Part shown: positions 4,802-37,328 of the stretch, piece by piece | How the letters are laid out: each line of letters begins with the position of its first letter | Numbering within the stretch: the first letter of the stretch is position 1 | Assembly: GCF_022538185.1 (NCBI RefSeq) | Contig: NZ_JAKYXC010000007.1 | Coordinates: 1-64,000 of the forward strand | Direction: 5' to 3' | DNA from: Microbacterium sp. CFH 31415 | Lineage (GTDB): Bacteria > Actinomycetota > Actinomycetes > Actinomycetales > Microbacteriaceae | DNA: 64,000 nt | The notes under the pieces: model-generated | What the model was told of the DNA's origin: nothing | The model's input: the letters and a program-made list of their open reading frames with translations, nothing else | The model's database searches: none | Made by a program: the position numbers and the translations under genes

Positions 4802-5458
4802 CTACGCGTCGTCGCGGGGCAGCAGGTACCCGCGCACGAACTCGGCGAACAGCGCGTTCATGTCGACGGTGTCGTCGAGCAGCCACTGCTGCTGGATCCC
4901 GTCCATCACCGCGCTGATGAGACGTGCGGCGAGCGCGGGGTCGATGTCGGTCCGCACCTCGCCGTCGGCTTGTGCGGCGACGAGGATCGGCGTCGCGCTC
5001 GCGGCGCCGTCGCGGTACCGCCGCGCGAACTCCGCATGCGCGGGGTGCTCCGAATCGGTCGCCTCGGCCGACACCGTGGCGTACAGCGACGTGAGGCCGC
5101 GCGACTCCTGGTTGTAGGCGACGACCTTGGTCGCCTGCTCGATCAGCGTGTGCTCGGCAGGGTCGCCTGCGGCCGCGCGGATCGCCTCGTCGCGCTGGCG
5201 GAGCACCTCGGTGAAGAGCTCCTCCTTGTTGGCGAAGTGGTGCATCAGTCCCGTGGGGGTGAGCCCGACGCGCTTCGCGATCTCGCGCAGCGACCCGCTG
5301 TGGTAGCCGCTGCGGCCGAAGACGATGAGCGCCTCATCGACGATCGCCTGGCGGCGCGCCTGGCCCTTGGCGTAGCTGCCGCGCCGCGCGCGCGCACCGC
5401 GAGCCGGGGCACCCGACGTGGGTGCCGCGGCTGCGGTCTCGGCGGCTTCGCTGCTCAC
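4802..5458 (-). CDS. TetR family transcriptional regulator
   Basis: This 218-residue protein has a TetR-type N-terminal helix-turn-helix (IVDEALIVFGRSGYHSGSLREIAKRVGLTP region, residues about 40-70) preceded by an Ala/Arg-rich tail. A C-terminal ligand domain ends in a WLLDDTVDMNALFAEFVRGYL helix. The GTG start overlaps the TGA of the glycoamylase-like gene by 4 nt (GTGA), so the two are one operon. It converges on the GH1 gene. It is the obvious candidate to bind the AATACCT-N10-AGGTTTT operators at 239 and 7058, which would make it autoregulated. The inducer is probably a beta-glucan-derived sugar (inference). Confidence 0.85.
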   Translation of the reverse strand: MSSEAAETAAAAPTSGAPARGARARRGSYAKGQARRQAIVDEALIVFGRSGYHSGSLREIAKRVGLTPTGLMHHFANKEELFTEVLRQRDEAIRAAAGDPAEHTLIEQATKVVAYNQESRGLTSLYATVSAEATDSEHPAHAEFARRYRDGAASATPILVAAQADGEVRTDIDPALAARLISAVMDGIQQQWLLDDTVDMNALFAEFVRGYLLPRDDA

Positions 5459-7008
5459 TCGCGCGCTTTCTCCTCGGAGCTGAACACCTGCGCCCTCATG
5501 GCCGGCCGCAGGAGCTTCTCCATCTCCTTGTCGACGAAGTACCGCTTCAGCGTATCGCCGGTCAGCTCATTGCCGATGGCCGCCATGATCATCGACTGGT
5601 CCAGCGAGAGGTAGCGCTCGGCGACGGTGCCGCTGCCGACCGCCACCGAGTCGTAGAACCCACCGGGTCCGTACGCGCCGAGATCGTCCTCGAGGTGGGC
5701 GAGGTTCTCGAGCACGCCGCGGCGGTCGTACGGAAGGGCGAGGAAGCTCGCGTGCGGCGTCACGACCCCGTCGCCGAACTCGGGATCCGGGTTCGTGCCC
5801 TCGGTGCATCCGGGCCGGTCGATGTCGACATCCGTGTTCTCGACGTCCGACGTGTACCCGTCGGAGCGCATACCCGCGAGGTCGACGCCGTACTCGGCGT
5901 AGCCGCCGAACGGGTTGCTCGCCGGTGAGAAGCCCCAGGCTCCGTAGCCGGCGTCCTCGAGCCCGTGGTGCTTCTGCACCGCGACGGTGATCGGATGGTT
6001 CAGCCGCCACGACCGCGGCCCCCACGTCGTCTCAGGCACCAGGAGGTCGGGCATGAGTGCCTCGAACATGCTGCCGCCCCAGCTCGGCACGAAGCTCATG
6101 CCGGCATAGGTGTAGACACCTTCCCAGACCTTGAAGCCCTGGTACGTGCGGTAGGTGCCGGTCGGCAGCTGCTCCTGCCATGCCCAGTCGCAGCCGGGCG
6201 GCATGGTGCGGTGGGTGCCGTAGAGCGCGGTCGCCGGGATCTCGCCGTTGGCGATGCCCAGGTACGTCGCGATCCGACTCTCGCTCACGGTCGTGTCGTA
6301 GTGGTGACAGGTGTAGAACGCCGTCTCACCCGATCCGTTGTACATCGGCGCCTCGACGCTGCAGTCCGGCGGCGGCGCCTCCCAGAACCCGCCGCGGTTC
6401 GTTCCCGCCGGCAGACCGGGTGCGCCCTCCGGGTTGAAGAACGCCGAGAACTCCATCGAGTCGTACAGCGCGTCCGCCTGCTCGGCGAGGCTCGGCTCCG
6501 CCTCGCGGACGATGCGGAGGGATGCTGCGAGCCAGCCGTTGTCGACCGTGCTGAGGAACGGGTGCACCGTGTCGCCGGAGTCCGGCCAGGTCGTCAGCTT
6601 CGCCCCCGTGGCCGGGTCGTACCAGTTGTAGTACATGCCGCTCGCATCGTTGCGCTCGAGACCCTCGAGGGTGTCGAGCGTCGTCGCCATGCGATCGCGG
6701 GCTTCGCCCTTCGAGATGATGCCCAGATCGCGCGCCGTGACCGCCGACCAGAGGTAGCCGCCGATGTTCGTGGGGGACGTGTACGCGCCCGCGGTGGCAA
6801 GGTCGCCGGTGATGTTGTCGGACGGCAGGCCCGTCGCTTCATCGGTCATCGCGTCCAGCGACGCCCAGGTGTCTTCGGCGTAGCGCTGGAGGGCCTCGTT
6901 GCCGGGCTTGCCGTGACCCGGACCGGCGGTCGCCGCCGACGGTGGCGCCAGCGCCACTCCTGCCGCTATCAGTCCCGCCACGGTCGCCGTGCTCAGCCAT
7001 CGTCTCAT
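5455..7008 (-). CDS. Secreted glycoamylase-like (GH144-type) hydrolase
   Basis: This 517-residue exported protein has a signal peptide of about 28 residues ending near SAATAGPG. The body resembles the glycoamylase-like (alpha/alpha)6 domain found in GH144 endo-beta-1,2-glucanases: TVDNGWLAASLRIV, a YNWYDPATG repeat region, FVPSWGGSMFEALMPDL and a Gly-rich YAEYGVDLAGMRSDGY stretch. It is preceded by a good GAGGAGAG ribosome site. It lies in an operon with the TetR gene and shares an operator with the importer/GH1 operon. The context suggests it cleaves an external glucan into oligosaccharides for import. I cannot assign catalytic residues. GH144 versus another glycoamylase-like branch is undecided. 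Confidence 0.75.
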   Translation of the reverse strand: MRRWLSTATVAGLIAAGVALAPPSAATAGPGHGKPGNEALQRYAEDTWASLDAMTDEATGLPSDNITGDLATAGAYTSPTNIGGYLWSAVTARDLGIISKGEARDRMATTLDTLEGLERNDASGMYYNWYDPATGAKLTTWPDSGDTVHPFLSTVDNGWLAASLRIVREAEPSLAEQADALYDSMEFSAFFNPEGAPGLPAGTNRGGFWEAPPPDCSVEAPMYNGSGETAFYTCHHYDTTVSESRIATYLGIANGEIPATALYGTHRTMPPGCDWAWQEQLPTGTYRTYQGFKVWEGVYTYAGMSFVPSWGGSMFEALMPDLLVPETTWGPRSWRLNHPITVAVQKHHGLEDAGYGAWGFSPASNPFGGYAEYGVDLAGMRSDGYTSDVENTDVDIDRPGCTEGTNPDPEFGDGVVTPHASFLALPYDRRGVLENLAHLEDDLGAYGPGGFYDSVAVGSGTVAERYLSLDQSMIMAAIGNELTGDTLKRYFVDKEMEKLLRPAMRAQVFSSEEKARE

Positions 7009-7184: not shown

Positions 7185-7250
7185 GGCCGGCAAGCCGGAG
7201 GCATCCGGCCGGCGAGCCGGAGGCACCCGGCCGGCGAGCCGGAGACGGCT
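7185..7250. repeat. Three tandem 22-bp repeats
   Basis: Units at 7185-7206, 7207-7228 and 7229-7250 share the core GGCCGGCRAGCCGGAG. Each unit contains the inverted repeat CCGGC-RA-GCCGG. The last unit diverges at its 3' end. The array is intergenic, immediately downstream of the ramB stop at 7293. Its role is unknown. Confidence 0.7.
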
Positions 7251-7292
7251 GGCGGCCACGGGACGGCTGGCGACGAGCGGGCGGCTCAGCCG

Positions 7293-8771
7293 TCAGCGCG
7301 GGGCGTGCGCGGCGAGGAACTCGTACACGTCGGTCGTGTCGACGCCGGGGAAGGCACCGGTCGGCAGGGTCGCGAGCAGCGTGCGCGGCGTGCGGACGTT
7401 CGGCCAGGAGTTCTCGCGCCAGGCGGCCTCGAGGTCGGCCGGCGCGCGCCGGCAGCACGCTTCCACGGAGTGCGTCGAGACGCCGCGGTGCGGGGTGTCG
7501 CGCCCGAGGAACCACTTGGTGTCGTCGAAGCGAACGCCCACGCTCACCGAATGCGCGCCCTCGCTCGACTGCTCGACGCGGGCCGTGCACCAGTAGGTGC
7601 CGTTGCCCGTGTCGGTGTACTGGTAGTAGGGGTTGAAGTGGTCGTCGACGTCGAAGACCGCGCGCGAGGTCCACTTGCGGCAGCACATCTGGCCCTCGAT
7701 CGAGCCGAGGCGATCGGTCGGGAAGTTGACGTCGTCGTTCTCGTACGCCTTCGTGATGGTGCCCGACTCGTGCACCTTGAGGAAGTGGACCGGGATGCCC
7801 AGGTGCACGGTCGCCAGGTTGGTGAACCGGTGCGCGGCCGTCTCGTACGAGACCGAGTACGCGTCGCGGAGGTCTTCGATCGAGATCGCACGGTCTTTCT
7901 TGGCCTCCTGCAGGAATGGCACGGCGTGCTGCTCGGGGATGAGCAGGGCACCGGTGAGGTAGTTGGTCTCGACGCGCTGGCGCAGGAACTCCGCGTACGA
8001 CGTGGGCTCCCGGTGCCCGAGGATGCGGCTCGACAGCGCCTGCAGCACCGCCGTGCGCGGGTCGCCCTTGGCCGTGACCCGGCTCGACAGATAGAGGCGC
8101 CCGTTCTTGAGGTCGGCGACGCTGCGGGTGGTCTGGGGCAGGTCGGGCACGTAGTGAAGCGTGAATCCGAGATGCGCGGCGATGTCGGATGCGGTGCGCT
8201 GCGTGAGCGGGCCACCTGGGTGGTCGACCGCGTCGAGAACCGCACGCGCGTGCACCTCGAGCTCGGCGAAGTAGTTGTTCTGCGTGCGCATGAGGCGGCG
8301 CAGCGCGACGTTGGCGCGACGCGCCTCTTCAGGCGTGGCCGCCCGCTCGTCGCGCAGCCGCTCGATCTCGGACTGCAGCGCCAGCATCGTCTTCAGCGCC
8401 TCATCGGGGATGGTCTTGCCGATGCGGAACGGCGGGATGCCGAGCGCCTGGAACGTCTGCCCGCGCATCGCCCGCTCGAGCGAGATCTCGAGGGTCGCAC
8501 GCTCGTCGAGCGGCTCGGACTCGAGGATCGAGTCGAGGGAGGAGCCCAGCGCCCGGGCGATCGCCTGCAGCAGCGTGAGCTTCGGTTCGCGCCGGCCGTT
8601 CTCGATCATCGACAGCTGGCTGGGTGCCCGATCGACCGCCGCCGCGAGCTCCTCCAGCGTCATGCCGCGCTCTGCGCGCAGCTGCCGGATGCGACGGCCG
8701 ATGGTCAGGGAGTCCACGTCGTCATGGTCGGAGACTTCTGCGACCGAATCGTAGGTGAAGGACGTCGTCAT
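7293..8771 (-). CDS. ramB: RamB-like XRE/ScfR transcriptional regulator
   Basis: This 492-residue regulator has an N-terminal XRE helix-turn-helix (residues about 20-80, GMTLEELAAAVDRAPSQLSMIENGRREP), a middle IrrE/ImmA-like region and a C-terminal ScfR-type domain containing MCCRKW and ACCRRAP cysteine motifs. This is the layout of Corynebacterium RamB, which controls acetate and glyoxylate-cycle genes. It is transcribed divergently from aceB-aceA, which supports that role. A candidate RamB site at 8805-8817 lies in the shared promoter region and would also allow autoregulation. The gene symbol rests on family and context. Confidence 0.85.
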   Translation of the reverse strand: MTTSFTYDSVAEVSDHDDVDSLTIGRRIRQLRAERGMTLEELAAAVDRAPSQLSMIENGRREPKLTLLQAIARALGSSLDSILESEPLDERATLEISLERAMRGQTFQALGIPPFRIGKTIPDEALKTMLALQSEIERLRDERAATPEEARRANVALRRLMRTQNNYFAELEVHARAVLDAVDHPGGPLTQRTASDIAAHLGFTLHYVPDLPQTTRSVADLKNGRLYLSSRVTAKGDPRTAVLQALSSRILGHREPTSYAEFLRQRVETNYLTGALLIPEQHAVPFLQEAKKDRAISIEDLRDAYSVSYETAAHRFTNLATVHLGIPVHFLKVHESGTITKAYENDDVNFPTDRLGSIEGQMCCRKWTSRAVFDVDDHFNPYYQYTDTGNGTYWCTARVEQSSEGAHSVSVGVRFDDTKWFLGRDTPHRGVSTHSVEACCRRAPADLEAAWRENSWPNVRTPRTLLATLPTGAFPGVDTTDVYEFLAAHAPR

Positions 8772-32615: not shown

Positions 32616-33133
32616 CGCGACACCTCCCGGTCGAGGTACGTCTCCAGGGCCGCCTGCAGACCGTTCTCGCCGAGCGGCAGCAGCACGGCCACGTCGGCGT
32701 CACCGGAACCGGGGATGCCCGGATACCCGCGGGTCACCGACACGCGATCCGCCCACGGCGTCGCGGCGGTGATGCCTCCGATCGCGAGATCGAGGGATCC
32801 TTCCTCCAGGTCGGCGACGAGGTCCTCCTCGCTGTCCACCGACCACTCCACGGTCGCATCGTGCTCGCGCGCGAAGCCCTCGATGAGGTCGGCGAGCGCC
32901 CCGTCGACGTCGGTGCCGTCCACGACGACGAGGTCTCCGCTCGGGGAGGCGCCGACTCGCAGTTGGCCGCCGGTGATGCGGTCGAGCGTGCCGTCGGGGT
33001 CGCTCGGGATCTCGAGTCCGCACCCCGTGAGCGTCGTGACACTCGCGGCGAGGGCGACCGCGAGTGCAGCTCGTGCCGCTCGCGAGAGGCTCGTCGCCGT
33101 GCGACGAGCCTCTCGAGAGCGGCGGCCGATCAC
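32612..33133 (-). CDS. Half-length binding-protein-like (SBP_bac_3) lipoprotein
   Basis: This 173-residue lipoprotein has its lipobox cysteine at about 38 (LTGC). The remaining 135 residues resemble lobe 1 of amino-acid binding proteins (GQLRVGASPSGDLVVVDG, ALADLIEGFAREHDATVEW, LEEGSLDLAIGGITAATPWADRVSVTRGY). It then ends soon after where lobe 2 should begin; full members have about 250 or more residues. The GTG start overlaps the SDR stop and its stop overlaps the CDF gene. With no ABC permease nearby, it may serve the CDF transporter as a surface partner rather than an ABC importer. Confidence 0.75.
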   Translation of the reverse strand: MIGRRSREARRTATSLSRAARAALAVALAASVTTLTGCGLEIPSDPDGTLDRITGGQLRVGASPSGDLVVVDGTDVDGALADLIEGFAREHDATVEWSVDSEEDLVADLEEGSLDLAIGGITAATPWADRVSVTRGYPGIPGSGDADVAVLLPLGENGLQAALETYLDREVSR

Positions 33134-34026
33134 AGCGGCTTGCCTCCGGTGACCGGGAGCACGGCTCCCGACACGTACGACGCGGCCTCGGAGGCGAGGT
33201 AGACGTAGGCGCCGGCGAGTTCGGCGGGCTGGCCCGGCCGGCCGAGCGGCGTATCGGTGCCGAAGGTGGCGATGCGCTCGGCGTCCCATCCCGTCGCGGG
33301 AATCAGGGGGGTCCAGATCGGACCGGGCGCCACCGCGTTCACACGGATGCCCTTCTCACCGAGCTCTTCGGCGAGCGCCTTGACGAACGCGACCTGAGCC
33401 GCTTTGGTCATCGCGTAGTCGATGAGCCCGGGCGAGGGATTGAACGCCTGCACCGACGACGTCACGATGATCGAGCTGCCCGCCGTCAGCTGCGGCACGG
33501 CCTGGCGTGCGGTGTAGAGCATGCCGTACAGGTTGGTGCGGAAGACGCGGTCGAACTCCGCGGTCTCGAGCGTCTCGAGGCTGTCACGATCCTTCTGGTA
33601 TGCCGCGTTGAGCACCACGATGTCCAGCCCGCCGAGCGCCTTCACCGCATCATCGACGATCGACGTCGCGAAGCCCTCGTCGCGGATGTCGCCGGCGAAA
33701 GCGGCGCCGGTGCGCCCGGCATCCTTCACGAGCGCGATCGTCGTGTCGGCGTCCTTCTGCTCCTCCGGCATGTGGACGATGGCCACGTCAGCCCCTTCGC
33801 GCGCGAACGCGATCGCGACAGCCCGGCCGATGCCCGAATCACCGCCCGTGATGAGCGCCTTGCGACCCTTCAGACGATCGCCGCCGACATAGGAGTCCTC
33901 GCCGTGGTCGGGTTCGGGGCGCGTCTCGTCGGTGAGGCCCGGCTGCTCCTGCTCCTGGGCGGGGAAATCGCCCTCCGGGTGCTTGTCGCGCGGGTCGGTC
34001 TGGGTGTCGGTGTTCGTGTCGGTCAT
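33130..34026 (-). CDS. Short-chain dehydrogenase/reductase, YhxC/YghA-like
   Basis: This 298-residue NAD(P)-dependent SDR has a polar N-terminal extension of about 45 residues (Asp/Glu/Gln-rich, containing FPAQEQEQPG). The Rossmann motif TGGDSGIGRAVA, NAAYQ, active-site Ser and YAMTKAA (Tyr-x-x-x-Lys) follow, then PGPIWTPLIP. The tail with PAQ.Q..PG is typical of the general-stress-type SDRs such as YghA. ATG at 34026 follows AAAGGAG. Its stop overlaps the lipoprotein GTG. Confidence 0.9.
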   Translation of the reverse strand: MTDTNTDTQTDPRDKHPEGDFPAQEQEQPGLTDETRPEPDHGEDSYVGGDRLKGRKALITGGDSGIGRAVAIAFAREGADVAIVHMPEEQKDADTTIALVKDAGRTGAAFAGDIRDEGFATSIVDDAVKALGGLDIVVLNAAYQKDRDSLETLETAEFDRVFRTNLYGMLYTARQAVPQLTAGSSIIVTSSVQAFNPSPGLIDYAMTKAAQVAFVKALAEELGEKGIRVNAVAPGPIWTPLIPATGWDAERIATFGTDTPLGRPGQPAELAGAYVYLASEAASYVSGAVLPVTGGKPL

Positions 34027-34108
34027 CGCTGCGCTCCTTTCCATGACATCGACGGTAGGAACCATCCGCCTGCGCGGGGAGGGGCTTGACGGACCACGAG
34101 GTATGACC

Positions 34109-34138
34109 GAGCGGATGGCGCGGCCGCAGCATCCGCTC
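34109..34138. terminator. Terminator downstream of the CDGSH gene
   Basis: GAGCGGATG pairs with CATCCGCTC around an inner GCGGCCGC palindrome, 31-60 bp after the CDGSH stop codon on the minus strand. It separates the diiron/CDGSH pair from the SDR promoter. Confidence 0.65.
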
Positions 34139-34168
34139 GATTGCCGGGGCCGCGCCTCCACTCGGGGG

Positions 34169-34384
34169 TCACGTCACCGAAGGCGGGGGCTCCGTAGAGA
34201 AGCGCGTCAGCTTGTGGGTGCCGTCGCACCACGGCTTGATCGCCGAGGCTCCGCACCTGCACAGGGCGACCGTGCGCCGGGGATTGCGCAGCGGTTCGCC
34301 GTCGTCGCCGAGGATCTCGACGTCGCCGCGCACCAGCAGCGGCCCGTTCGCGCAGGCGGTGATGACTGGCGTCCGCCCGCTCAC
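34169..34384 (-). CDS. CDGSH iron-sulfur domain protein
   Basis: This 71-residue protein consists almost entirely of one CDGSH domain. The ligands are C42, C44, C53 and H57 in CRCGASAIKPWCDGTH, an exact fit to C-x-C-x2-S-x3-P-x-C-D-G-T-H. It should hold one [2Fe-2S] cluster with three Cys and one His. The GTG start overlaps the stop of the diiron-protein gene by 4 nt. Translational coupling suggests it delivers electrons or iron to that enzyme. Confidence 0.88.
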   Translation of the reverse strand: MSGRTPVITACANGPLLVRGDVEILGDDGEPLRNPRRTVALCRCGASAIKPWCDGTHKLTRFSTEPPPSVT

Positions 34385-35439
34385 GACGCGAACCCCTCCT
34401 CGGCCCGCAGCGACGACCGGCCGGCTTCGAATGCCGTGCGCATGTGGTCGGCCCCGAGGTCGTCGAGCGCGAGACACGCGGCGGCACCGAACATGATGTC
34501 GGGCACCAGCTCTGGCCGCTGCTCGCCCAGTGCACCCGCGAGGTCGTGCGCAGCGATCTGCTCGTGCACAGCGTCCGCCTCGACGTGCTCGTCGAAGTAA
34601 TCCGTCACCTCGGACTCGAAGCCCAGCCGCCGGAAGGCGTCGCCGTATGACCGGTTCGGAAGCGACGACGTCATCTCGAACGCCGCCAGGTGGCCCACGA
34701 TCGCGCCGACCAGGCGGCGGTTGAGCCCGAACATCGACATGGCGTTCTGTGCCGCGAAGGTCACCGCCGGCACCACGTCGGCATAGGCACCGTACGTGGA
34801 GTCCAGCCTGGCCCCGCGCATCGTGCGGGCGAAGATCTCGGCGTGAACCCGCTCGGGGCGGCCACCGCCGTATTCGTCTGACTGGATCTCGACCAGCGCG
34901 GCCTTCGGGCGACCGGTCAGGCGCGGGATGGCCCACGAGTGCGGGTCGGCCTCGCGGAGCGTGTAGATGCTGCGGTGGATCAGGAACTCGCGCGCCTGCT
35001 CGAGCGTCGCCTCCTTGGCGAGGAAGCGGGAGAGAGAGGGTCCGGGCGAGGGGGCCGTCAGGTCGAAAAGCGCCTGCGCGATCGCGGACGCCTTCGGCTC
35101 AGGGCTGTCGGGGACCTCGACGCGACGGCGCAGCGCCGCCTCGAAAGCCGACTCGAGGATGCCGCGCGCCTCGATCAGCGCAGGATGCCACTCCCAGCCG
35201 GCGTCGATCCACTCGAGCGACCCGTACGAGCTCGCGTAGAGCAGGAACAGCGTGAACTGGATGTCCTCATCGGTCGTGACGTCGTCGCTGGAGAGCACCG
35301 CCGCGCGGCACGCACCCACCATCGCGTCGCGGCGGTGCGCGACGTCGTCGTGCATCAGGATCGCGAGCGTCGTGGCGCTGAGCGGACCGCGCGGGCCGAA
35401 GGCGTGAAGGGCAGTGGATTCGATGTCGGCGATCGTCAT
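34381..35439 (-). CDS. Haem-oxygenase-like diiron (HDO) family protein, iron-containing redox enzyme
   Basis: This 352-residue all-helical protein of the iron-containing redox enzyme (haem-oxygenase-like) superfamily has possible iron ligands in SDEYGGGRPERVHAEIF (E, H), AFEMTSS (E) and YFDEHVEADAVHEQIA (D/E, H, H). Relatives include UndA, BesC, SznF and CADD, which do O2-dependent chemistry on fatty or amino acids. Starting at 35439 places the ATG behind AGGAGG. The length exceeds simple HDOs (about 230-260 residues) by an N-terminal helical region of about 110. The coupled CDGSH gene suggests a dedicated electron donor. Confidence 0.8.
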   Translation of the reverse strand: MTIADIESTALHAFGPRGPLSATTLAILMHDDVAHRRDAMVGACRAAVLSSDDVTTDEDIQFTLFLLYASSYGSLEWIDAGWEWHPALIEARGILESAFEAALRRRVEVPDSPEPKASAIAQALFDLTAPSPGPSLSRFLAKEATLEQAREFLIHRSIYTLREADPHSWAIPRLTGRPKAALVEIQSDEYGGGRPERVHAEIFARTMRGARLDSTYGAYADVVPAVTFAAQNAMSMFGLNRRLVGAIVGHLAAFEMTSSLPNRSYGDAFRRLGFESEVTDYFDEHVEADAVHEQIAAHDLAGALGEQRPELVPDIMFGAAACLALDDLGADHMRTAFEAGRSSLRAEEGFAS

Positions 35440-35536
35440 GGGTCCTCCTGATGGCACGACCGCGGGCTGCCGCGGCGATCGCTTCGACTCTCTCAGGCGC
35501 GACCCGCGAACCGGAGGGGTTGACGCCGCGCCGCGG

Positions 35537-36346
35537 TCAGGCTAGATCCGCTCGGCGGTGAGGTCGCGGCATCCGATCCGTCTGCGACCCCGTCGCTCGC
35601 CGCACGATCAGCCGCAGCCAGCGCAGCGGCGGGAAGTCGCGCGGCCAGTGCACGAGCACCGACCGGAACCCTCGCGTGAGGCGCACGCCGAACGAGCCGA
35701 CGTCGTCGCCGAACGGACGCATCGACATGCGCATGCCCAAGCCCCGGCGGTAGCGGATGACGTGCCGCTCGCCGACGTGGAAGGCGAGGTCGAGGTCGTC
35801 GTGCACCTCGGGATCGTGCCGGTGCACGTCGGCCCGGACGTCGTGCCACACGCGACGGCGCAGCGCGAGGTTCGATCCGAACAGCGGCAGGTGCCCGAGC
35901 GCCGGCGCGGTGGCCGCGACGTACGCCGCGAGGTAGACGGCGGCCAGCGGTGTCCGCAGCCACCGTGGCCCGTCCGCGAACGTCGCGCCTCCGGTGATCG
36001 CCCCGACGTCGGGCGCGTCCGCGAAGGCGGCGACGACCCGCTCGACCCACTCTGGCTGCGGAAGGCAGTCGGCGTCGAGCCGCAGCACGAGGTCTCCCGT
36101 GGCAGCGTCGTACCCGGCTGAGGATGCCGCGGGAATGCCCGGCTCTGCGCACGGGACGATCCGCGCCCCGGCGGCGCGGGCCACGCGAGCGGTGCCGTCG
36201 GACGAGCCGTTGTCGACGACGATGACTTCGTCGGCCTGACGCCTCTGGGCGGCCAGTGCGGCCAGGCAGGAGGCGAGCCGCTCGGCGTCGTTCTTCGCGG
36301 GAATGACGACCGAGACTCTGATGGCTGTCCTGCCGGGAGCGCTCAC
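35537..36346 (-). CDS. GT2-family glycosyltransferase
   Basis: This 269-residue GT-A transferase has SVVIPAKNDAERL, VIVVDNGSSDGTARVARAAGA and the metal-binding RLDADCLPQPEW (D-x-D). No clear catalytic-loop W motif or membrane anchor is seen; a short hydrophobic stretch near residue 140 (LAAVYLAAYVAATAPAL) could be membrane-associated. It starts with GTG. The role is probably cell-envelope glycan or lipid glycosylation. Neighbours give no clear pathway. Confidence 0.85.
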   Translation of the reverse strand: MSAPGRTAIRVSVVIPAKNDAERLASCLAALAAQRRQADEVIVVDNGSSDGTARVARAAGARIVPCAEPGIPAASSAGYDAATGDLVLRLDADCLPQPEWVERVVAAFADAPDVGAITGGATFADGPRWLRTPLAAVYLAAYVAATAPALGHLPLFGSNLALRRRVWHDVRADVHRHDPEVHDDLDLAFHVGERHVIRYRRGLGMRMSMRPFGDDVGSFGVRLTRGFRSVLVHWPRDFPPLRWLRLIVRRATGSQTDRMPRPHRRADLA

Positions 36347-36359
36347 TGCTGCTCCCGGG

Positions 36360-37328
36360 TCAGGCGAGCGCTCGCAGGCGCTCCAGCAGGGGCTCCGCGA
36401 CCTCGGTCACGAAGCGCTCCTGCTGCTCGTCGCCGATCTGGACGACGGCGATGTCGGTGAACCCCGCGTCGATGAACGGCCGCACGCTCTCGGCGAGCTC
36501 ATCGAGGTCGGGTCCGCACGCGATCGCCTCGGCGACGTCGTCGGTCCGCACGAACTGGCTCGCGGCAGCGAAGCCCGCGGGCGTCGGAAGGTCGGCGTTG
36601 ACCTGCCACCCACCGCCGAACCAGCGGAACTGGTCGTGCGCCCGTTCGACCGCCGTCTCCAGGTCGGGGTCCCACGAGATGGGTACCTGGCCGATCTTGC
36701 GCGACGGGCCCGGATGCGCGGCATCCCACCCCGCCACCAGATCCTTTTCGGGCGTCACCGCGATCATGTGGTCGGCCAGAGGAGCGAAGCGCTCGATCGA
36801 GTCGCCGCCCGAGACCGCGATGCCGATCGGCACGCCGTCCTCGGGCGCGTCCCACACCCGGGCCGAATCGACCCGGAAGTATTCGCCGTCGAAGGTCACG
36901 AGCTCGCCCGAGTGCAGCTCGCGGATGATCTCCACCGCCTCCTCGAGCATGCTCTGGCGCGTGCCGACGCCCGGCCAGCCCTCGCCGACGACGTGCTCGT
37001 TGAGGCTCTCACCCGACCCCAGGCCGAGCACGAACCGCCCCTCCGAAAGCAGCTGCATCGTCGCGGACTTCTGCGCCACGACCGCCGGGTGATACCGCAT
37101 CGTCGGGCACGTGACGTAGGTCATGAGCTCGACCCGCGAGGTGGCCTGCGCGACGGCGCCGAGCACGGTCCACGCGTACGGCGAGTGACCCTGCGTGGTG
37201 AGCCAGGGCGAGTAGTGGTCGCTCGACACCTCGAAGTCGAATCCGGCCTCCTCGGCCGCCTGGGCGTAGCGCACGAGCTCCCTCGGCCCGCTCTGCTCGG
37301 TCATCAGGGTGTAGCCGAATCGCACCAT
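36360..37328 (-). CDS. LLM-class F420-dependent oxidoreductase
   Basis: This 322-residue luciferase-like TIM barrel close to F420-dependent glucose-6-phosphate dehydrogenase relatives contains FEVSSDHYSPWLTTQGHSPYAW, TYVTCPTMRYHPAVVAQKSATM, LGLGSGESLNEHVVGEGWP and GIAVSGGDSIERFAPL. It should use F420 for hydride transfer to an unknown substrate. It lies 13 bp downstream of the GT2 gene. The conserved Cys in TCPTMRYHP is typical of the TIGR03557-like group. Confidence 0.88.
   Translation of the reverse strand: MVRFGYTLMTEQSGPRELVRYAQAAEEAGFDFEVSSDHYSPWLTTQGHSPYAWTVLGAVAQATSRVELMTYVTCPTMRYHPAVVAQKSATMQLLSEGRFVLGLGSGESLNEHVVGEGWPGVGTRQSMLEEAVEIIRELHSGELVTFDGEYFRVDSARVWDAPEDGVPIGIAVSGGDSIERFAPLADHMIAVTPEKDLVAGWDAAHPGPSRKIGQVPISWDPDLETAVERAHDQFRWFGGGWQVNADLPTPAGFAAASQFVRTDDVAEAIACGPDLDELAESVRPFIDAGFTDIAVVQIGDEQQERFVTEVAEPLLERLRALA

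Follow-up and report, generated by a model that had tools for sequence, protein, structure and literature searches.

What does a small iron-sulfur protein of the CDGSH type do beside a diiron enzyme? The question is raised by a pair of genes in the window, which is the whole stretch of 64,000 nucleotides analysed here from contig NZ_JAKYXC010000007.1 of Microbacterium sp. CFH 31415. One gene encodes a heme-oxygenase-like diiron oxidase/oxygenase (HDO) of 352 residues, and the other encodes a CDGSH protein of 71 residues. A preliminary description of this DNA gave both sizes and the 4-nt overlap of the genes correctly, and proposed that the CDGSH protein is a partner for either electron transfer or iron loading. 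Its observation is partly confirmed here and its interpretation partly supported. The two genes form a widespread accessory pair with tight linkage. Electron transfer is the better of the two proposals: the HDO is somewhat more probably than otherwise the oxygenase of a two-component system in which the CDGSH protein is its dedicated electron donor. Iron loading, as one form of iron or cluster supply, is an unlikely role.

Linkage of the HDO and CDGSH genes

The order sample consists of 149 genomes, in which an HDO was counted at E 1e-56 or better (the weak match in genome G125 is thus left out). HDO is seen in 43 of these genomes and CDGSH in 52. Of the 43 HDO genomes, 42 also contain CDGSH, against only 10 of the 106 others (Fisher P 2.8e-26, uncorrected for kinship). 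The sole HDO genome without CDGSH is G032, whose HDO sits on a contig of 3,089 bases. In all 42 genomes carrying both, the two genes are adjacent. The gap between the matched parts is 5–1148 bp, and 300 bp or less in 34 of the 42. CDGSH lies downstream on the same strand in 18 genomes, divergently in 16, and upstream on the same strand in 8. In the genus sample of six genomes, four contain both genes and two contain neither. The CDGSH protein of the pair is the only zf-CDGSH match of its own genome at E <= 0.001. Among the matches listed, genome G439 contains two HDO paralogues on two contigs, and each is adjoined by its own CDGSH, as read by eye.

The named loci were chosen by HDO similarity alone, as the best 80 of 538 confirmed relatives, and are hence close kin. 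CDGSH stands beside HDO in 78 of these 80: downstream on the same strand in 71, convergently in four and divergently in three. The two loci without CDGSH reach a contig edge 0.7–1.1 kb past HDO. The genera of the named loci include Microbacterium, Leifsonia, Arthrobacter, Cellulomonas, Glycomyces and Micromonospora. These facts refute a restriction of the pair to this strain. The overlapping start of 4 nt is shared by 54 of the 72 loci in which CDGSH follows HDO immediately and on the same strand; the window is among them. The pair is also found on plasmids of Curtobacterium, Streptomyces and Kitasatospora (L135:6938-8247; L134, L136, L224).

A wider set of 162 HDO rows was chosen by similarity, partly for having (L161–L180) or lacking (L141–L157) CDGSH, so that its 142 CDGSH-linked rows, 16 unlinked rows and four rows undecided at contig ends are not frequencies; some rows are probable duplicates (e.g., L017/L073 and L030/L124). 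The HDO tree contains 125 rows thinned at 78% identity. It was built by a quick method without mixture, and 50 of its 122 inner branches have support below 80. On this tree, CDGSH linkage requires at least three changes, versus 10–15 for shuffled labels. The gene arrangement among linked rows requires at least 14 changes, versus 31–35 when shuffled. A fixed order would be expected from operon inertia, while the observed rearrangement with kept linkage fits selection for joint function. That the genes have stayed neighbours through repeated rearrangement suggests that the CDGSH protein is the HDO's own electron supplier.

Metal ligands, fold and a possible docking face

The HDO contains seven ligand positions: E163, E189, H199, E255, H285, D289 and H292. 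All seven are invariant in 41 proteins of the order sample and in 162/162 rows of the wider set, so the doubt whether the iron ligands are conserved did not hold. They are also common to four SznF-like proteins, which are described below. They align with E189, E215, H225, E281, H311, D315 and H318 of SznF, among which E189 is presumably a metal ligand. The other six are metal-binding and essential in SznF (PMC11705231), and seven metal-binding residues are reported for its HDO domain (PMC11177257). Most HDOs have three histidines and three carboxylates (3H/3C), while about 25% are 3H/4C, the additional ligand being a Glu of an auxiliary helix, as in SznF (PMC13108848).

The assignment to the HDO family, also made in the preliminary description, is secure by fold and ligands. 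Haem_oxygenas_2 (PF14518) matches residues 150–326 at E 5.9e-60, as the sole Pfam match at E <= 0.1. There is no C-terminal cupin, and the protein stops after the HDO domain. The AlphaFold model is all-helical (pLDDT 93.2, pTM 0.91). Foldseek with this model matched 30 PDB chains at E <= 0.001, with HrmI at the head and SznF, RohS and FlcD next. HrmI is aligned over 333 columns of the 352-residue query (E 3.8e-12, TM 0.77/0.80, 20% identity). N-oxygenases take the first three places by fold, but their identity to the HDO is only 18–20%.

The N-terminal region had been described as an extra part of about 110 residues. Such a part is present, as the Pfam domain starts only after 149 residues; R17, G18, D59, L64, E83, W84, R92 and E96 among these are invariant in the family. 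However, it is not extra, since the alignment with HrmI is nearly full-length. Judged from the model, it is an ordinary helical part of this HDO subgroup. The corresponding part of SznF serves dimer formation (PMC11705231).

The CDGSH/NEET motif is C-x-C-x2-S/T-x3-P-x-C-D-G-S/A/T-H. The protein of the window fits it with C42-R-C44-G-A-S-A-I-K-P-W-C53-D-G-T-H57, and C42, C44, C53 and H57 are invariant in 14 homologues. Its sole Pfam match at E <= 0.1 is zf-CDGSH (PF09360, E 5.3e-20), and the closest solved structure is 3tbm (E 3.2e-10, 59 aligned residues). The protein is predicted to bind a [2Fe-2S] cluster. Neither it nor the HDO is matched by any NCBIfam model.

The CDGSH-linked HDOs keep E284 (140/142), E287 (136/142) and E293 (142/142) on the ligand-bearing helix, and R197 in 125/142. 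The four residues are mostly lost in the 16 unlinked HDOs. E284 is kept too in the four SznF-like proteins with a Rieske partner. From the alignment, E284, E287, E293 and R197 could be a docking face for CDGSH. The unlinked HDOs fall largely in one part of the tree, so that kinship alone may explain the pattern.

Those four SznF-like proteins give a parallel case. In plasmids of Azospirillum, Gloeothece, Methylobacterium and Pantoea, a gene for a small Rieske [2Fe-2S] protein (107–118 aa) follows the HDO-cupin gene in 4/4 full-length matches, a count that leaves out three partial matches of Rhizobium. The genes overlap by 4–20 nt. As CDGSH proteins are not related to Rieske proteins, different small [2Fe-2S] proteins seem to occupy the slot beside N-oxygenase-type HDOs. 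The parallel suggests a rule that HDOs of this type work with a small [2Fe-2S] protein from a neighbouring gene. Two distant HDOs count against a general rule. In Sphingobium, the next protein is receiver-like (116 aa) and is not an iron-sulfur protein; overlapping small neighbours of HDOs are thus not always redox proteins. In Vibrio, the next protein is without a Pfam match. The plasmid locus of Pantoea also contains ada, an alkylation-repair gene.

Glycosyltransferase and other surroundings

A membrane-type family-2 glycosyltransferase with the motifs YVLPLR, ADDDVRY and QRVRQAYD is an optional third member of the system. The preliminary description missed this gene, which is absent from the window and often directly downstream of HDO in other lineages. 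It is located within 6 kb of HDO in 38/146 loci, 31 of which also contain CDGSH. In 27 of the 40 cases in which it follows HDO directly, the two genes share 4 nt. It is seen in nine of the 149 order genomes, and all nine are among the 43 HDO genomes (hypergeometric P 7e-6, uncorrected for kinship); in three of them (G041, G060 and G091) it is present yet non-adjacent. Its confinement to HDO genomes suggests that the HDO product may be a small molecule that can be glycosylated. Its gain and loss on the HDO tree requires 28 changes, no fewer than shuffled labels (26–33). No match to it was found in the genome of the window at E <= 1e-20. The glycosyltransferase gene upstream of HDO in the window (35537–36346) was considered as a counterpart and rejected, because it is of a different type.

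A zinc alcohol dehydrogenase is seen near HDO in 8/20 regions versus 1/40 control regions of the same 20 genomes, with a P value (3.5e-4) that is flattering since the neighbour families were picked after viewing the neighbourhoods. It is encoded at L015:9324-10511 and in 24 further loci, and is weakly similar, far below the cut-off, to glutathione-independent formaldehyde dehydrogenase. Stress-like neighbours are seen as well, and a stress-island reading was considered, but the controls back the zinc alcohol dehydrogenase only. Not significantly enriched are the stress short-chain dehydrogenase/reductase (3/20 versus 4/40), sigma B/F (1 versus 0), DUF4383 (2 versus 0) and YbdK (1 versus 0). 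A stress role of the pair is possible. In a locus of Kitasatospora (L136:7085-8999), HDO has genes for a dimethylargininase and a YbdK-type ligase as neighbours, which is suggestive since SznF acts on methylarginine.

Two observations concern loci lacking CDGSH. A protein of 83–84 aa starting with MAKDHGPSVK is encoded next to or near HDO at L142:4754-5005, L143:5794-6045 and L145:6273-6527, in three deep lineages; the copy of L142 is without an NCBIfam match. L148 contains divergent HDO paralogues about 1 kb apart (5171–6211 and 7218–8258), and one of them overlaps a glycosyltransferase gene.

The features of the pair and of the related loci are collected in Table 1.

Table 1. Positions of the HDO–CDGSH gene pair and associated features (numbers without a locus prefix refer to the window).
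Feature	Position	Strand	Remark
HDO, heme-oxygenase-like diiron oxidase/oxygenase, 352 aa	34381–35439	−	ATG at 35439, TGA ending 34381
CDGSH [2Fe-2S] protein, predicted, 71 aa	34169–34384	−	GTG at 34384, TGA ending 34169
GTGA, overlap of HDO stop and CDGSH start, 4 nt	34381–34384	−	sequence
AGGAGG, ribosome-binding site of HDO	35444–35449	−	sequence; 4 nt ahead of ATG, spacing counted by hand
AGGAGG, ribosome-binding site of CDGSH, within the HDO reading frame	34395–34400	−	10 nt ahead of GTG, counted by hand
GC-rich hairpin without T-run, directly past the CDGSH stop	about 34107–34165	−	fold; coordinates read by hand
SznF-like HDO-cupin genes	L137:4476-6223, L221:2932-4655, L222:2968-4742, L223:2932-4633		each overlaps a small Rieske gene
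Glycosyltransferase, examples	L101:9038-10105, L150:166-1179, L153:5374-6381, others		

The pair had been said to share a terminator. A pattern scan of 33000–36400 found none; there is only the strong GC-rich hairpin past the CDGSH stop, which lies in a 171-nt stretch (34030–34200) with a folding z of −3.1 and is a possible transcript end. A promoter scan of 157 regions upstream of HDO gave no clear motif besides sigma-B/F-like sites. These sites were seen in 5/157 regions (shuffle mean 0.7, maximum 3) and in 4/157, which is too weak for use. There is no catalase among the six flanking genes of the window run against Pfam, to which the search for catalases was confined. A search of phages gave no match. 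A second, weak match to PF14518 (E 2.6e-10) is among those listed for the genome of the window, in an open frame of 622 codons (G000:C6:138536-138904), and similar weak matches are listed for the related genomes G021 and G054.

Proposed electron supply, rival explanations and known systems

It was stated earlier that several HDOs are without a known native reductant, in agreement with PMC13185094. How the CDGSH protein would fill this place can be drawn as a cycle. The diferrous HDO, holding two irons through the seven SznF-like ligand positions, would bind O2. A peroxo-diferric species would form and then oxygenate a nitrogen of the substrate. The reduced CDGSH protein would return the diferric HDO to the diferrous state for the next turnover. 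By comparison with the nearest folds, the chemistry is most likely the N-oxygenation of an amine or an amino-acid-like substrate. A fuller version can be offered tentatively, and is on balance doubtful: the HDO is a seven-ligand, N-oxygenase-like enzyme with a CDGSH donor, Rieske proteins have the same role for SznF-like enzymes, and some lineages glycosylate the product with the dedicated membrane-type glycosyltransferase. If this is true, bacterial CDGSH proteins would get a defined enzymatic job, and N-oxygenating HDOs would get a native donor.

Several points weigh against electron donation by CDGSH. The cycle is built on genes, ligands, fold and linkage, from which electron transfer, reaction and substrate are inferred. 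Among 20 loci fetched as CDGSH-free candidates, 15 have a clear HDO but lack a CDGSH gene in its vicinity, which means that the HDO can do without CDGSH there; L157 has CDGSH after all, and L158–L160 contain distant HDOs only. No fusion of HDO and CDGSH is seen among the collected loci. No recurrent reductase for CDGSH is present among the named neighbour clusters. The potential of mitoNEET lies near 0 mV, and potentials of CDGSH proteins may be high for a donor. E255 is invariant in 162/162 rows and is aligned with SznF E281, yet HrmI, described as 3H/3C, also has Glu there. Conservation of E255 is therefore no proof of iron binding.

CDGSH might instead be a donor of iron or of [2Fe-2S] clusters, or a repair or assembly factor, keeping the labile diiron site of the HDO loaded. 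NEET proteins hand on clusters, and the linkage data fit this role equally well. Besides, many HDOs lose iron easily, having a flexible core helix 3 (PMC13108848). However, a diiron site takes Fe2+ and not a [2Fe-2S] unit, and related HDOs acquire their iron with no partner of this kind. In the SznF-like systems Rieske proteins occupy the slot, and these are electron carriers, not iron donors. Supply of iron or clusters is the unlikely role given above. A still smaller chance is given to a protective oxidase that would clear O2 or peroxide during drying or oxidative stress, as has been suggested for DtpC, with CDGSH as electron supply or redox sensor. DtpC is an HDO of Acinetobacter co-transcribed with katE; it restricts H2O2 in dried cells and depends on its predicted iron ligands (PMC13232832). 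Reaction with O2 in the absence of substrate is possible at a seven-ligand site, as reported on SznF (PMC13108848), and genes for sigma-B/F, CsbD or universal stress proteins are found close to HDO in some loci. General-stress families are not significantly enriched versus the 40 control regions, though, and the glycosyltransferase confined to HDO genomes points to a small-molecule product. The mechanism of DtpC is itself left open by its authors (PMC13232832).

Finally, HDO and CDGSH might be mere co-regulated stress or iron genes, whose proteins do not act together. In favour of this, the neighbourhood often contains the zinc alcohol dehydrogenase and further redox genes. Against this, the linkage is unique to CDGSH, being 42/42 in differing orientations, while the next commonest neighbour family is seen in 25/121 loci. 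Since convergent and divergent pairs do not form operons, the linkage cannot be put down to co-transcription alone. Co-regulation of this kind is very improbable. Electron donation by CDGSH to the HDO is kept as the preferred reading.

More than 10,000 HDO sequences are known, and about a dozen are characterized (PMC13108848). In the open-licence literature searched, neither a description of the HDO–CDGSH pair nor an enzyme partner assigned to a free-standing bacterial CDGSH protein was found; absence in print is thus not shown. The pair makes two questions, the redox partner of HDOs and the enzyme partner of CDGSH proteins, testable with two small soluble proteins.

Among the known systems, HrmI, the lysine N-oxygenase of hormaomycin biosynthesis (PDB 9nh9, 9n1x), is the nearest in fold, N-terminal helices included, and has the core ligand positions of the HDO in the window. 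It differs in its 20% identity and in being described as 3H/3C (PMC13108848). No CDGSH gene is known to adjoin that of HrmI, though none was searched for. SznF, an N-nitrosourea synthase (PDB 6vzy), shares the seven ligand positions and the N-terminal helical part. SznF-like proteins contain a cupin, which is absent from the HDO of the window, and their plasmid loci have Rieske rather than CDGSH. DtpC is another HDO whose gene lies outside natural-product clusters and close to stress genes. It differs in its operon with katE, and CDGSH is not mentioned in the available text of the paper (PMC13232832), from whose description alone the comparison is made. The prokaryotic CDGSH protein 3tbm has the same cluster motif; it is annotated as uncharacterized, with no enzyme partner in its record line.

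In mangotoxin biosynthesis, too, an HDO, MboA, is encoded together with an iron-sulfur redox partner of its own, MboB (PMC13185094). They are perhaps the first characterized dedicated pair of this kind, and full turnover of MboA requires the reductase MboB (PMC13185094). MboB is an NADH reductase with flavin and [2Fe-2S], while the CDGSH protein of the window has 71 aa without a flavin or NADH domain. MboA is 3H/3C. Since CDGSH belongs to another family than MboB, the pair is not a homologue of MboAB, though MboA–MboB is the system closest to it in working.
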